NCBI GenBank assembly: GCA_945902075.1
Contig: CAMDMA010000018.1
Coordinates: 1-64,000, forward strand
Direction of reading: 5' to 3'
DNA from: Candidatus Kuenenia stuttgartensis
GTDB lineage: Bacteria; Planctomycetota; Phycisphaerae; Phycisphaerales; SM1A02
DNA: 64,000 bases
In this document: piece after piece, positions 16,331-22,408 of the stretch
Position numbering within the stretch: the stretch's first letter is position 1
Layout of the letters: each line of letters starts with the position of its first letter
Program-made: the position numbers and the translations under genes
Notes under the pieces: model-generated
What the model saw: only the letters and a program-made list of their open reading frames with translations
Told to the model about the DNA's origin: nothing
Database searches by the model: none

Positions 16331-16461
16331 TGGGTTTGGCCGTGGCGCCTCGCCACAATGTGCGATCCAATCGCGGTAGACGGCTCAAGCACACATCATG
16401 AGGAGCCGCTCGTCTGCTGCGCTCCGGCTTGCGGCGTTCACCTCTCGAGGAGATCGGTTCC

Positions 16462-17541
16462 ATGGTGTCCACTCGATCGGAGAACGCTCTACACGAAGCG
16501 CGAGGCGACAGCGGCCGCGACACGCTCATGGTGCTCGGCGGGCCAAGCGCGGGAAAAACGGTTTGGATCTGCCGACTGCTCGATGCCCTTCGTGTGCCCA
16601 CAACGCTTGTCGGCGGACGCATTCCGTCCGGCGAGACGCACGAATCGACTCCGAATGCTCACATGCTCCGTTGTGAGCCGACATCGGATGACACGCGCCG
16701 ACGGATCGCGACAACGATCACAGGGCTCGAGAGAAAATCGTGGCCGCTTCCAACAGCGGATGCCGTCGAGTATGAAGTGGACTTCACTCTGTCGGGCGAA
16801 ACCATTCGTACGCCTCATCGGCGGCTGACGATCGTCGACCTTCCGGGGTCCGCACTGCTTGCTGCTTTTTCGCCGAGTAATCCCAGCACGCTCACGATCG
16901 GCTGGACCGTAGGCAACCAACTCGTACGCACCGCTGCAGTCATCGTCGTGATCGATCCAGAGACTGTCGTCGAACGTTCGCAACAATCGCAAGATCTCCT
17001 TAACGTGACGGTCGCGATGCTTGAACATCTGCGTGCGAGTCCGGACGGAAGGTCGATTCCGATTGCGATCGTCCTCTCGAAATGTGACCGTGGCTACAAA
17101 GTCGTGATGCGCGAGGGCGGCGTCCGCAATTTCATGCAGCGACACCTCGGGCCCGTCCTCGTCGCGGCCGAGTCTGCGCGGGTGTACGCCTCATCGGCCA
17201 CGAGATCGCGCCTTGTCAGCGCGGGTTACCGCGAACCATCGACCCGTCGTCCGACCGAAAATCTCATCGAACCGATTCACTTCATCCTCGGAACGCTGGA
17301 TCGAATCGACAGTATTCGGAGGCAAACGCGGCGACTCCCACAGAGCAGCAAGCTCCCTCAGGACCTCTCACGCGACCTGCCGCGCCGCGAGGCACGAATT
17401 CCACCACTTGCTTGGACCGTGTTCGCGCTGGGTATGTTGGTGCTCGCTGGAACGGCTGTTGATTTCGCGCTCCGCCGCCCGTCGACGGAGGGGTCCCATG
17501 CAACCACAAAATCGGAGCCGACTCCGGAGGTCGCGCAATGA
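16462..17541 (+). CDS. Membrane-anchored P-loop GTPase-like protein
   Basis: A 359-residue protein of no named family. The N-terminal half is a P-loop NTPase: Walker A GGPSAGKT at 26-33, a WPLPT segment near 98, Walker B/G3 TIVDLPGS near 127, and a G4-like SKCD near 205 in place of NKxD. This order resembles the double-GTPase or DO-GTPase group; that assignment is tentative. One strong hydrophobic helix lies at about 312-332 (PPLAWTVFALGMLVLAGTAV), with a short tail after it, so the GTPase domain would be cytoplasmic. ATG 16462 follows GAGGAG at a good distance. Its stop overlaps the next gene's start (ATGA), so the two are likely one functional unit. Confidence 0.75.
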   Translation: MVSTRSENALHEARGDSGRDTLMVLGGPSAGKTVWICRLLDALRVPTTLVGGRIPSGETHESTPNAHMLRCEPTSDDTRRRIATTITGLERKSWPLPTADAVEYEVDFTLSGETIRTPHRRLTIVDLPGSALLAAFSPSNPSTLTIGWTVGNQLVRTAAVIVVIDPETVVERSQQSQDLLNVTVAMLEHLRASPDGRSIPIAIVLSKCDRGYKVVMREGGVRNFMQRHLGPVLVAAESARVYASSATRSRLVSAGYREPSTRRPTENLIEPIHFILGTLDRIDSIRRQTRRLPQSSKLPQDLSRDLPRREARIPPLAWTVFALGMLVLAGTAVDFALRRPSTEGSHATTKSEPTPEVAQ

Positions 17542-18050
17542 ACAACCCTGAAGACCGTCGCGATATATCGCACGCAGCGCATGAATCGCGCTTCGACCTC
17601 GGCGAAGCCGACTGCACTTCAGACGCACTTGATCGTGCGTTTGCTGCACTTCCCGGCGAGGAGACGATGATGGGCGCGGTAAGCCCGAGCATCGATGGCG
17701 CCTCGGACCCTGAGCTTGGCATCAAGTCCGATGATCCTGCGAACGACACGCTTCGCGGAGTCGACTCCCCGCTGATTGCGCCGCGTGGCAGCGGTACCCG
17801 ACTTCGGGACCGCGGAGAGCGAGCCTCGGACGAAGGCTTTCGTTTCTCAGGCGCATCGATGAGTTACGGGCAGATCGTGATCACCTCAGGGAGCGACGAA
17901 TGGGACGCGAACCACGCGCGCGAGAACCTCAACTCTGACATCGACGACCAACCTGTGTCCCGTACTGCGGAGTATCTCTTGATTTCCGCTGGAATCGCAG
18001 GTCTTTTTACGAGCGTGATCTTCTTTCTACTCAGCCGCGCCAACGCGTGA
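17538..18050 (+). CDS. C-terminally anchored acidic membrane protein, GTPase partner
   Basis: No family is recognised. The 170-residue protein has an acidic, low-complexity cytoplasmic part (about 1-135, rich in Asp, Ser and Arg) and one C-terminal membrane helix at about 145-164 (LLISAGIAGLFTSVIFFLLS) followed by only six residues, a tail-anchor layout. A better ordered segment, FRFSGASMSYGQIVITSGSDEW (split here: FRFSGASMSYG then QIVITSGSDEW), occurs near 101-122 and may be the binding motif. It is cotranslated with the GTPase-like gene (ATGA overlap) and converges with the flavoprotein gene 15 bp further on. Confidence 0.65.
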   Translation: MNNPEDRRDISHAAHESRFDLGEADCTSDALDRAFAALPGEETMMGAVSPSIDGASDPELGIKSDDPANDTLRGVDSPLIAPRGSGTRLRDRGERASDEGFRFSGASMSYGQIVITSGSDEWDANHARENLNSDIDDQPVSRTAEYLLISAGIAGLFTSVIFFLLSRANA

Positions 18051-18065
18051 TGACGCATCGCACGC

Positions 18066-19478
18066 TCAATCCGCGAGAGTCGCCCGCAGCGCGCGATGCC
18101 AATCACTTGAGAAGACATGTGTTGGGTCGTAAGCATCCTTGCGGGCAAGAAATTCTGGAAGTTCTGGGTACGCAGCGAGCAGCTGCGCTCTCGTTGCATG
18201 TCGGTGATATGTCAGGAAAAATCGCCCGCCACGCTCTAACGCGAGGTCGATGAGCGCGCGAAAGCACTCTGCAGAATGCGCGACCCCTGCCGCCGTGTGG
18301 TTGACATGGAGATTGAGGATCACACACGCAAGATCGCGCTTTGCCCACGACAAGTAACTCTCGACATCGGCGGTAATCAACCGAATTGTCCCGTAAATCA
18401 CTTCAGCGCCGCGCTCCGTGAGCATCCTTGCTGCCGCGTGAAGGAAGTCGATGAGTCGTTCGTGTGGCACGTAGAGTTCCGTGATTGCCTCACTTCCTCG
18501 ACAATGCGCACCGAGTGCGCGGTCTATTCGCTCGTGGTACCCATCAAGGTACACGCCGAGCTGATGCAGGTCTGACCAGTACAGTTGGCCATCGGTCGCA
18601 ACGTAGTGCTGCGCGTAACGGCGAAAGGCTTCCGCTTTGTTCGTGTGTGCGAGAATGAGAAGTTGCTCCCAGTCTGTGGCATCGAGTTCGCGCACAGTTT
18701 CGGCCGGAAGCACACCCTCGACAGGTTGGTAGCAACTCATCACGCCCTTGGTGAGAAACTCAGGAGAGGCTGGATCGATGTCGAACTGAAAATCACCGTA
18801 AATGAAGCCATTTTCGATGCGTCGACGCGCAGCGTGTGCCGCATCGTCGATGTCGATCACGCGCACAACGCGACGGAGAACAACGCGAGGCCGAAGCCGA
18901 AGCGTGACCGTTGTAATGATGCCAAAGAGTCCGTATCCGCCGATCGCGAGCGCGAAGAGTTCTGTGTTTTCTTTCCGACTACATCGCACTTCGATCCCGC
19001 GAGCATCAAGCAAGGTGAAGCGCTCGATGTCCGCGATGATCGGAGGCATCGAAAGTCCGCGACCATGCGCATTCGCCGAGAGAGCGCCGCCGAGCGTCAG
19101 ATGGTCCGCGCCGGTCTGCTTCTGCGCGATACCCCACCGCTCAGGCTGTCGCGGCTCACGTTCGCGCTGGATGGCGAGATAGCCCGTGATCAAGGCGGGC
19201 CATTCGATTCCCGCCTCTGCCGTGACATGGCCGCACTCCATGTCGAAGTCAAGGATCCGCGACAATCCGCGAATATCGACGAGTTCGCTGTCACTCAGAA
19301 ACTGCTGGCCCCCCATGGCATGCCTTGATCCCGAGACCGCAATGGACCGCCCTTCCTGAGCCGCAGCGCGCACGATCCCTACGAGTTCCTCCCGCGTCGA
19401 CGGCCTTGAAACCCGCTTGACCGTCGTCGCGTTGAGGCCCGAATGGACGTCGTTGACTTCAACCTGGGATGAGATCAT
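18066..19478 (-). CDS. FAD-binding (PCMH/VAO-type) oxidoreductase
   Basis: A 470-residue flavoprotein. The N-terminal FAD-binding domain contains SGSRHAMGGQQF near residue 50, GIEWPALI, and TGADHLTLGGALSANAHGRGL near 125, a pattern of the vanillyl-alcohol-oxidase superfamily. The His in GSRHAMGG is placed where some family members bind FAD covalently. The C-terminal half is the substrate domain (VPHERLIDFL, YGTIRLI, LNLHVNHT). Members oxidise alcohols or sugars (alditol oxidase, DprE1-like, lactone oxidases); the substrate here cannot be told. ATG 19478 is chosen since upstream residues of the open frame lack homology and would reach into the gyrA leader. Confidence 0.83.
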   Translation of the reverse strand: MISSQVEVNDVHSGLNATTVKRVSRPSTREELVGIVRAAAQEGRSIAVSGSRHAMGGQQFLSDSELVDIRGLSRILDFDMECGHVTAEAGIEWPALITGYLAIQREREPRQPERWGIAQKQTGADHLTLGGALSANAHGRGLSMPPIIADIERFTLLDARGIEVRCSRKENTELFALAIGGYGLFGIITTVTLRLRPRVVLRRVVRVIDIDDAAHAARRRIENGFIYGDFQFDIDPASPEFLTKGVMSCYQPVEGVLPAETVRELDATDWEQLLILAHTNKAEAFRRYAQHYVATDGQLYWSDLHQLGVYLDGYHERIDRALGAHCRGSEAITELYVPHERLIDFLHAAARMLTERGAEVIYGTIRLITADVESYLSWAKRDLACVILNLHVNHTAAGVAHSAECFRALIDLALERGGRFFLTYHRHATRAQLLAAYPELPEFLARKDAYDPTHVFSSDWHRALRATLAD

Positions 19479-19669
19479 CGCTGCAGCGTATCGCTTCCCC
19501 GCCACCAACGCGGAAACGCCATGATTCCTGCTGATTTTCTCGAATTCTCGCCTCGCAACCCAAGCCCCTCCGGCGCGCTCTTGCGGTGAGTTTCGGCTAC
19601 ACTCCGAGCCCCTCAGTTCCGTCCACGCAGATGCGTGTGAACGGTGTCCCGAAAGGACCGAGTTTCCCA

Positions 19670-22408
19670 ATGGCCGATACGACCGACGGCGCGATGCCGA
19701 ATCCCTCCGATGGTGTTCCTCCCACTCCCGCTGGGGCGCTGACGCCGGCGACGACCCCGCCGGTCCATGACCGCGTGCTCGACCTCAATATCGATCGCGA
19801 ATTGCACGAGAGTTACCTCACGTACGCGATGAGCACGATCATGGATCGCGCTCTCCCCGATGTTCGCGACGGGCTCAAGCCCTCGCAACGCCGCATTCTC
19901 GTTGCGATGAACGACCTCCGACTTGCGCCCGGAAAAAAGCACATTAAGTGTGCCAAGATCTGCGGCGATACAAGCGGCAACTACCACCCGCACGGCGAGA
20001 GCGTCATCTACCCAACGCTCGTCAACCTCGGACAGGATTGGAAGACGCGGTACATGCTCGTCGACAAGCAGGGCAACTTTGGCTCCATCGAAGGCGATCC
20101 GCCGGCAGCCATGCGTTACACCGAAGCGCGTATGACCGCGCCGGCAATGGCGATGATGGAGGATCTCGACAAGGAGACCGTCGACTTCAAGCCCAACTAC
20201 GACGAGCGACTCATGGAGCCGCTTGTCTTGCCGGGTAAGTTGCCGAATCTTCTGGTCAATGGTTCAAGCGGTATTGCCGTCGGCATGTCGAGCACGATGC
20301 CTCCGCACAACCTGCGCGAGATTTGCGGCGCGATCGTGGCAACCATCGATGATCCGCTCATCGGCGTGGATCGACTCATGGAGTTTGTGCCCGGCCCCGA
20401 TTTTCCCACGGGTGGCATCATCATGGGACGCCGTGGCATTATGGAGGCCTACGCCAGCGGGCGCGGTCGGCTCGTTGTGCGCGGTCGCGTGCGTCACGTC
20501 AAGATTGCGGGCCGCGATGCCATCATCATTGATGAGATTCCCTACCAAGTTTCGCAGAGCGCGCTTATCGAGAAGATCGTTGAGGCGTACAAGGACGGCC
20601 GTATCGAGGACATTTCGCAGGTCCAGAATCACTCTGGCCGCGATGCGCGAACGCGCATTCAAGTCCTTTTGAAGAAGGGTGCGGATCCCGCGACCGTTGA
20701 GAAGCAACTGTACGAGTTCACGCCGCTTCAGTCGTCGTACTCCATTCAGAACATCGCGCTCGTCCAACACCAACCGCGCACGCTCTCGCTGCGGCAGTTG
20801 ATCCAGTGCTACATCGATCATCGCTGCGATGTCATCCGCCGTCGCTGCGAGTTCGAACTCCGCCAAGCCAGACAAGCCGCCCACAAGCTCGAAGGTCTGA
20901 TTTACGCGGTGTGCGATATCGATGAAGTCATCCGCCTTATTCGCACGAGTCGCACGCGCGAAGAAGCAATTGAGCGGTTGATGGAGCGCGCGTTCCGCAT
21001 CCCTTCGAGTTACCCACGAATCGACATTGTGCCCGCGCGGCTCGTCGATCGTGCCGAGAAATTTTTTGCCGACGGCAAGGGTGGCGTGCACCTCACCCGC
21101 GTACAGGCTGATGCGATTGGTGCGCTGCGACTCATTCAGCTCGTTGGCCTCGAGATCGAGAAACTCGCGAACGAACTGAGCGCGCTGCTTGCCACGATCG
21201 ATGATCTCGAACTGATCCTTTCCGATGCAGCGCGTATCCTCGCGATCGTCCGCGCCGACACAATCCTGATGGCAGAGCGCTTCGGCAACGATCGACTGAC
21301 TTCGATCGAAGGCAATGAGGCCGAGGATTTCGAACTCGGCGAGCTCGTGCCGCAGCACACCGCAGTTGTGACCGTCAGCCACGCGGGCTACGTCAAACGC
21401 CTCCCACTTGATACCTATCGCACGCAAGGCCGCGGTGGAACCGGCGTCAAGGGTCTCGAGGCGCGCGAAGATGACTTTGTGGAACAAGTGCTCGTCTGCG
21501 GATCACACGACGATCTTCTTTGTTTCACCGACACCGGCCGTGTGTTCCGAATCAAGGTTTGGCAAATCCCCGAGATGGCGCGCACCGCGAAAGGTCGCGC
21601 AATCGTAAATCTGCTTGACCTCCGTGAAGGCGAGAAAATCAAGACCTTCCTGCCCATTGAGGACTTCGAGAAGAAGGAAGACTTCTTGCTCTTCTCCACC
21701 TCGAAGGGCCGCGTGAAGCGAACGAGCCTGAAGGATTATCGCAATGTCAATCGTGGTGGCATCATCGCCATCGCGCTCAATGATGGCGACAATCTCATCG
21801 GTGTCATCTCGACGAGCGGTGGCGATCACGTGCTGCTTGCAACCAAGGAAGGCATGGCGATCCGTTTCGACGAAGACGACGCGCGCGTCATGGGTCGCGA
21901 TACCGCGGGCGTCAAGGGAATCGACCTTGCAGAGAGTGACGAGGTTGTCGGCATCGTCCGTTGCGACGATTCGCGCGCACTGCTCACGGTCACAACCAAA
22001 GGCTACGGCAAGCGCACCGCTTTCAGCGAGTATCTCGTGCAACTCGAAGATGGCTCGACCCGCGCCCAATCGCGCGGAGGCAAGGGACGCATCGACATCC
22101 AGACCACCGACAAGAACGGCGTGGTGGTTGCGGTACTCCCGATCTCACCGAACGATTCCGTTGTCGTCGTCAGCGAGGGCGGCATGCTCGTCCGCACGCC
22201 AGCAGCTGAAATTCGCGAGGTGGGCCGCAATACCCAAGGCGTCCGCGTGGTCCGTCTCAAGGACGGCGACGCGGTCGTCGGCGTCGCATCCGCTCCGATG
22301 GATGAGGTTGAAGGTTCGACGGACGAACCAACCCCTAGCCAGAGCGCGTCAACTCCGCCGCCACCTGTTGGTGACAACCCCGCTTCGACTCCACCATCAC
22401 TGAACTGA
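19670..22408 (+). CDS. gyrA: DNA gyrase subunit A
   Basis: GyrA cuts and rejoins DNA in the gyrase heterotetramer that introduces negative supercoils. The 912-residue product has the winged-helix/breakage domain with catalytic Tyr150 ([10 protein letters not shown]), a coiled-coil arm, and a C-terminal beta-pinwheel with the GyrA-box [10 protein letters not shown], which separates it from ParC. A Pro-rich leader of about 30 residues precedes homology, and a Pro/Ser tail ends it. ATG 19670 follows GAAAGGA; an in-frame ATG at 19631 lacks a site. In the quinolone-resistance region Ser111 (E. coli 83) is kept, but the position equivalent to Asp87 is Pro115 and Asp82 is Glu110. Confidence 0.96.

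Follow-up and report, generated by a model that had tools for sequence, protein, structure and literature searches.

A diverged relative of DO-GTPase2 coupled to a largely disordered, tail-anchored protein in the position of GAP1 in five species of one genus

Introduction

Does a pair of overlapping genes, coding for a GTPase and an acidic protein that each end in a membrane anchor, represent a new kind of GTPase system or a variant of one already described? The question is raised by a stretch of 64,000 nucleotides (hereafter the window) from Candidatus Kuenenia stuttgartensis (GCA_945902075.1, contig CAMDMA010000018.1, positions 1-64,000, forward strand), for which a new membrane GTPase system with a tail-anchored partner had been proposed.

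Kaur et al. 2020 (eLife, PMC7159879) described the family that turns out to bear most closely on this question, DO-GTPase2, together with its GAP1 partner and GTPase-centric systems of the GAP1-N2 type. Among the features of the family is a glutamate conserved in Walker B/switch II (PMC7159879). Roles in conflict or membrane stress have been proposed for DO-GTPase systems (PMC7159879, PMC11237479), and a DO-GTPase has been reported in psp operons (PMC11237479). In the literature that names these systems we found no experimental test of them, the predictions being drawn from comparative genomics.

Results

Two coupled genes between lpxI and gyrA

The two genes, here called P1 (the GTPase) and P2 (the partner), share a 4-nt ATGA overlap (Table 1). 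Their starts and ends as originally predicted were borne out by the reading frames, the Shine-Dalgarno-like sites and conservation, as were a P-loop GTPase with a C-terminal membrane helix (from motifs, hydropathy and an AlphaFold2 helix) and an acidic second protein that also ends in one. Both genes were called by a simple codon-usage gene finder, which placed the P1 start later and gave P1 a low codon-usage score.

The pair had been described as having no recognised neighbours, which is incorrect: a LOG-type gene and lpxI lie upstream, with a 189 nt gap between lpxI and P1, and gyrA lies downstream. Convergent to P2 is a gene for a FAD-linked oxidase with FAD_binding_4 and ALO domains (18066-19670, minus strand), which separates P2 from gyrA in the genome of the window only; in three other carriers gyrA comes immediately after P2. 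No effector domain was seen around the pair, the flanks of which consist of housekeeping genes. The suggestion that the pair has its own promoter found no support, despite the 189 nt available: a sigma-70 scan returned none, and an alignment of the upstream DNA of the orthologues revealed no convincing common promoter.

Table 1. Positions of the P1 and P2 genes and their sequence features within the window
Feature	Position	Strand	Description and basis
P1 GTPase gene	16462..17541	+	ATG to stop; 359 aa
P1 layout	16462..17541	+	Ras-like domain ~residues 19-290, linker, C-terminal membrane helix ~315-338, low-complexity tail of ~20 residues
P2 gene	17538..18050	+	ATG to stop; 170 aa; acidic (net -15), mostly disordered, tail-anchored partner
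Shine-Dalgarno-like GAGGAG, 5' of P1 start	16447..16452	+	read from sequence; similar GGAG in three orthologues
Shine-Dalgarno GGAGGT for P2, within P1 3' end	17526..17531	+	read from sequence
P1 G1/P-loop GGPSAGKT (residues 26-33)	16537..16560	+	sequence; GRRxxGKT or GRTxxGKT in GAP1-coupled relatives
P1 G3/switch II IVDLPGSAL (residues 124-132)	16831..16857	+	Ser in place of the DO-GTPase glutamate of DYPGE
P1 G4 SKCD (residues 206-209)	17077..17088	+	sequence, orthologue alignment
P1 G5-like SSATR (residues 244-248)	17191..17205	+	sequence, orthologue alignment (SSATRS in P1)
P1 C-terminal membrane helix (residues 315-338)	17404..17475	+	AlphaFold2 helix, hydropathy
P2 conserved linear motif DEGFRFSGASMSYGQ (residues 98-112)	17829..17873	+	orthologue alignment, motif search
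P2 C-terminal membrane helix (residues 147-165)	17976..18032	+	structure prediction, hydropathy

P1 is a diverged member of, or borders on, DO-GTPase2

Motifs and predicted structure agree that P1 has a TRAFAC/Ras-like GTPase fold with G1, G3 and G4 present. The AlphaFold2 model is confident (pLDDT 86.5) and comprises a Ras-like domain, a linker and a C-terminal helix (315-338) that coincides with the only hydrophobic segment of the protein. When compared with solved folds, the model aligned over 246 residues with YcjX (Z 16.4, rmsd 3.8) and, at an equal Z, over ~165 residues with Arf/Arl-type GTPases. GIMAP2 and G-alpha, which ranked at the top of a Foldseek search, were rejected as kin, being generic Ras-like matches with low TM-scores.

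The best Pfam match of P1 was DO-GTPase2 (PF19993), at 26.0 bits (E 9e-6) one bit below the cut-off of 27, whereas PF04317 (YcjX/DUF463) reached just 11.5 of 25 bits (E 0.14). The four orthologues scored 26.1, 27.4, 33.1 and 30.1 bits against PF19993, three of them above the cut-off, and more distant relatives in the same bacterial family (~23-34% identity) exceeded it wherever they were scanned. For most of these relatives, the next gene downstream encodes a protein with a single membrane helix at about residue 265-325 and, N-terminal to it, a GAP1-N2-like domain, and 12 of the 16 partners of membrane-anchored DO-GTPase2s matched GAP1-N2 (PF20013). In the tree, the P1 sequences form one clade (100/100), which sits on a long branch within the membrane-anchored DO-GTPase2s that are coupled to GAP1-like proteins (85/98); its closest group consists of three GTPases of another genus, here termed A-type (88/85, with a long-branch warning). 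By these profile scores and this tree, P1 belongs to, or borders on, DO-GTPase2, and is not a new family. Of the proposed new GTPase system, then, a two-anchor unit with a different partner stands, while an unknown kind of GTPase does not. The G4 motif SKCD had been called degenerate, but Ser for Thr is a conservative change within S/TKxD, and the orthologues all keep K and D; the odd site is switch II.

P2 is acidic, largely disordered and tail-anchored

P2 has a single hydrophobic segment, C-terminal at ~147-165, and was predicted to be disordered except for a short helix and a C-terminal helix (142-169), in a model built from five sequences with a pLDDT of 56.5. Its orthologues carry a net charge of -14 to -17, and the chain stops 2-5 residues past the best hydrophobic segment. 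The membrane-proximal flank is acidic, not positive. Of the same cytoplasmic topology suggested for both proteins, the membrane anchors hold up; the orientation of P2 is no more than the default for tail-anchored proteins. Conservation within P2 is highest in DEGFRFSGASMSFGQ, and a search for the P2 motif across all fetched loci returned matches in orthologues only. P2 showed no similarity to a GAP1-like profile and no detectable homology to the 85-aa tail-anchored protein of the A-type loci; neither P1 nor P2 had a match in NCBIfam, PADLOC or PHROGs.

The pair is strictly co-retained and has an accessory distribution

The pair recurs in four more genomes of this genus (G001, G002, G005 and G010), again between lpxI and gyrA, with P2 divided between two contigs in G005 and the contig of G010 starting within the lpxI 3' end. 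A search of genome contigs found three loci, which proved to be the same contigs as those of G001, G002 and G005. The four orthologous GTPases are 49-62% identical and the complete P2 orthologues 31-44%, and the 4-nt overlap is retained in all four (as GTGA in G005). Among 181 genomes of the bacterial family, both genes occur together in five of five carriers and were otherwise not detected; the P2 profile added to these one weak match, a stop-containing frame in a genome that has no P1. Further afield, 392 sampled genomes of the phylum yielded one weak, partial match outside the bacterial family, plasmids a single weak partial match, and viral contigs no relative.

Both genes evolve faster than LpxI. 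With dS near saturation, dN/dS was ~0.17-0.35 for P1 and 0.28-0.57 for P2, and below 0.6 for both genes in every pair with a defined value; as judged from these ratios, P1 and P2 are under purifying selection. The original prediction had named two findings that would count against it, a GTPase from a well-known family with a known partner and a second gene not conserved with it. We found the former, because P1 belongs to or borders on DO-GTPase2, the known partner of which is GAP1, but not the latter, P2 being strictly co-retained.

In eight other members of the genus, counting genomes in which lpxI and gyrA could be read on one contig, lpxI leads directly into gyrA, from which it follows that the pair is dispensable. 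No P1 match was found in G011, the closest sister of carrier G001, where lpxI runs straight into a gyrA leader (locus L084) near-identical to that of G001 from ATCGCCAGCCC on; so either G011 lost the pair or its sister acquired it, in both cases recently. The pattern of presence requires three changes on a tree of LOG, LpxI and GyrA, several forks of which are weak. On this comparison of gene orders, the pair is accessory and sits as an insert between lpxI and gyrA.

P2 occupies the position of GAP1, and the switch-II glutamate is lost

In all five P1 orthologues switch II reads DLPGS or ELPGA, as opposed to DY[PS]GE in the GAP1-coupled relatives, so that the signature glutamate is lost. This forms part of a two-state pattern among the GTPases of the bacterial family (three further calls are without an N-terminus). 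In one state, 24 GTPases have a GRRxxGKT or GRTxxGKT P-loop and all retain the glutamate (DY[PS]GE); 19 have a GAP1-like gene after them, four run to a contig edge and one (L031) is fused to trypsin. In the other state, eight GTPases, the five P1s and the three of A-type, have a GGxxAGKT P-loop and Ser, Ala or Gly in place of the glutamate (DxPG[SGA] or ELPGA), and each of the eight has a small tail-anchored protein encoded after it, either P2 or an 85-aa protein with RNWMLPL..QEFRVPD. Since they form a joint clade (88/85, under the long-branch warning already given), the eight may derive from one evolutionary event.

After switch II, the P1 clade has the near-invariant, clade-specific SNPSTLTIGWTVGNQL, and the switch-II extension AF[AS]PSNPSTLT..WTV.NQL, likewise near-invariant there, is missing from the GAP1-coupled relatives.

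In the genome of the window (97% complete), searches for GAP1-N2, a GAP1-like gene and a second DO-GTPase detected none. P1 itself falls under the threshold of the DO-GTPase profile search used there, so a similarly diverged paralogue could escape it; a direct search with P1 found P1 alone. A separate GAP1-N2 gene is present elsewhere in G001 and G005, and a second DO-GTPase in G005. What is new, as read from gene order, is that the GAP1 position is occupied by P2 in five species of one genus: the known partner GAP1 is absent from it and a different tail-anchored protein stands there instead, and the pair is therefore a distinct variant.

Some neighbouring arrangements were seen along the way. 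At L028:6944-8406, an A-type DO-GTPase that has lost the glutamate is ATGA-coupled to the 85-aa protein, of which three genomes of a single genus have conserved copies, and a standard GTPase-GAP1 pair comes immediately downstream of the two. Also at this locus, a GAP1-like membrane protein carries bacterial TSP3 repeats on the C-terminal side of its membrane helix (L028:9613-12147), and in L031:7741-9525 a trypsin-like peptidase domain is fused to a DO-GTPase, with a membrane helix between them.

Discussion

We favour, at a probability of about 0.55, a reading in which P1 is a membrane GTP switch and P2 its tail-anchored adaptor, derived from a GAP1-coupled DO-GTPase2 and serving an envelope-stress or conflict response. 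The ancestor of P1 would have been a C-terminally anchored DO-GTPase2 encoded beside a GAP1-N2-type membrane protein, which in one genus would have lost this partner and gained translational coupling to P2. The two proteins would sit next to one another on the inner face of the membrane, where the nucleotide state of P1 could govern whether the P2 motif DEGFRFSGASMS[YF]G docks on the switch-II surface of P1, which is remodelled and near-invariant, with P2 acting as a regulator or effector adaptor. We infer GTP binding by P1 and a physical P1-P2 complex; the response, envelope stress or conflict, is suggested by analogy with the roles proposed for related systems. Near-invariance within the clade, and absence from relatives coupled to GAP1, make the switch-II extension a likely docking surface for P2, and since most of the P2 model is of low confidence it is conservation that points to this docking.

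The glutamate lost in P1 follows DxxG, at what we take to be the position of Gln61 in Ras; for this reason P1 may be slow in hydrolysing GTP, or dependent on a partner. In the strongest form of the latter, P1 would hydrolyse GTP only when an acidic/Arg motif of P2 is inserted, making P2 a membrane-tethered GAP-like subunit. The glutamate is gone both from all five P1s and from three A-type GTPases of another genus, the tail-anchored neighbours of which have a conserved E-F-R (QEFRVPD) where P2 has a conserved D-[ED]-G-F-R, and the pattern E.?FR is rare (4 in 18,200 aa). Yet this common motif was chosen post hoc in two proteins that have no detectable homology, and P1 could use another mechanism of hydrolysis, so that we think such completion by P2 unlikely. 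Similarly doubtful is its generalisation, that a DO-GTPase lineage swapped the folded GAP1 for short disordered tail-anchored partners, in the two forms of P2 and the 85-aa protein, each carrying a linear motif by which the GTPase active site would be completed or gated at the membrane; the glutamate in the catalytic position would have been lost along with the swap.

The same loss, taken with the low codon-usage score of P1 and the absence of the pair from G011, could instead mark a decaying relic, P1 being a non-hydrolysing remnant of a DO-GTPase/GAP1 system, P2 an unrelated small membrane protein and the pair under loss. That is less probable again, given that dN/dS is well below 1 for both genes, that G1, [DE]xPG, SKxD and SSAT are retained across five species, and that co-retention is strict with a conserved overlap. 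We give no more credence to a housekeeping envelope factor acting with LpxI or the adjoining cell-surface glycosyltransferase: the pair is constantly downstream of lpxI on the same strand, but a 189 nt gap separates them, lpxI leads directly into gyrA in eight genomes, and a very close relative lacks the pair. As to polarity, an early suggestion that gained no support, the Ras-like fold of P1 would suit an MglA-like switch with an MglB-like partner; however, profile searches gave P1 no Ras-, Arf- or MglA-type match in Pfam or NCBIfam, its best family being DO-GTPase2, and P2 has no roadblock domain, which makes such a switch highly improbable.

The adaptor reading, though confined to a pair with a narrow distribution (five species of one genus), would provide a case of a GTPase re-wired to an unrelated, disordered membrane partner, and the pair, as a minimal two-gene DO-GTPase version without GAP1 or effectors, would offer an easy entry point for functional tests.

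Comparison with known systems

Like the GAP1-N2 system (Kaur et al. 2020, PMC7159879), which is also present in planctomycetes, the pair combines a GTPase of this family and fold with membrane association and tight coupling to a downstream partner gene. It differs from that system (PMC7159879) in that the partner is P2, with no GAP1 gene adjoining or detected in the genome; in that P1 has another P-loop and neither the signature Walker-B glutamate nor a zinc ribbon; and in that no FNIII component or effector gene was found near it. The YcjX stress GTPase (DUF463, PDB 6nz4-6nz6) gave the longest alignment to a solved fold, along with a weak, below-cut-off profile match, and the anchor and partner of P1 lie outside this alignment.

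Within the same bacterial family, the pairs of a membrane DO-GTPase and a GAP1-like protein (for example L025:5542-8676 and L028:8469-12147) likewise consist of an anchored GTPase followed by a one-helix protein, but there a GAP1-N2-like domain of ~265-325 residues precedes the helix and a large further part follows it, and P2 has neither. The A-type DO-GTPases with their 85-aa partners (L028:6944-8406 and two relatives), unlike P1-P2, immediately precede a standard GTPase-GAP1 pair, and no homology between the 85-aa protein and P2 was detected; they share with P1-P2 the loss of the glutamate, a GGxGAGKT P-loop and a small tail-anchored protein coupled through ATGA (or nearly so), and form its weak sister group in the tree.
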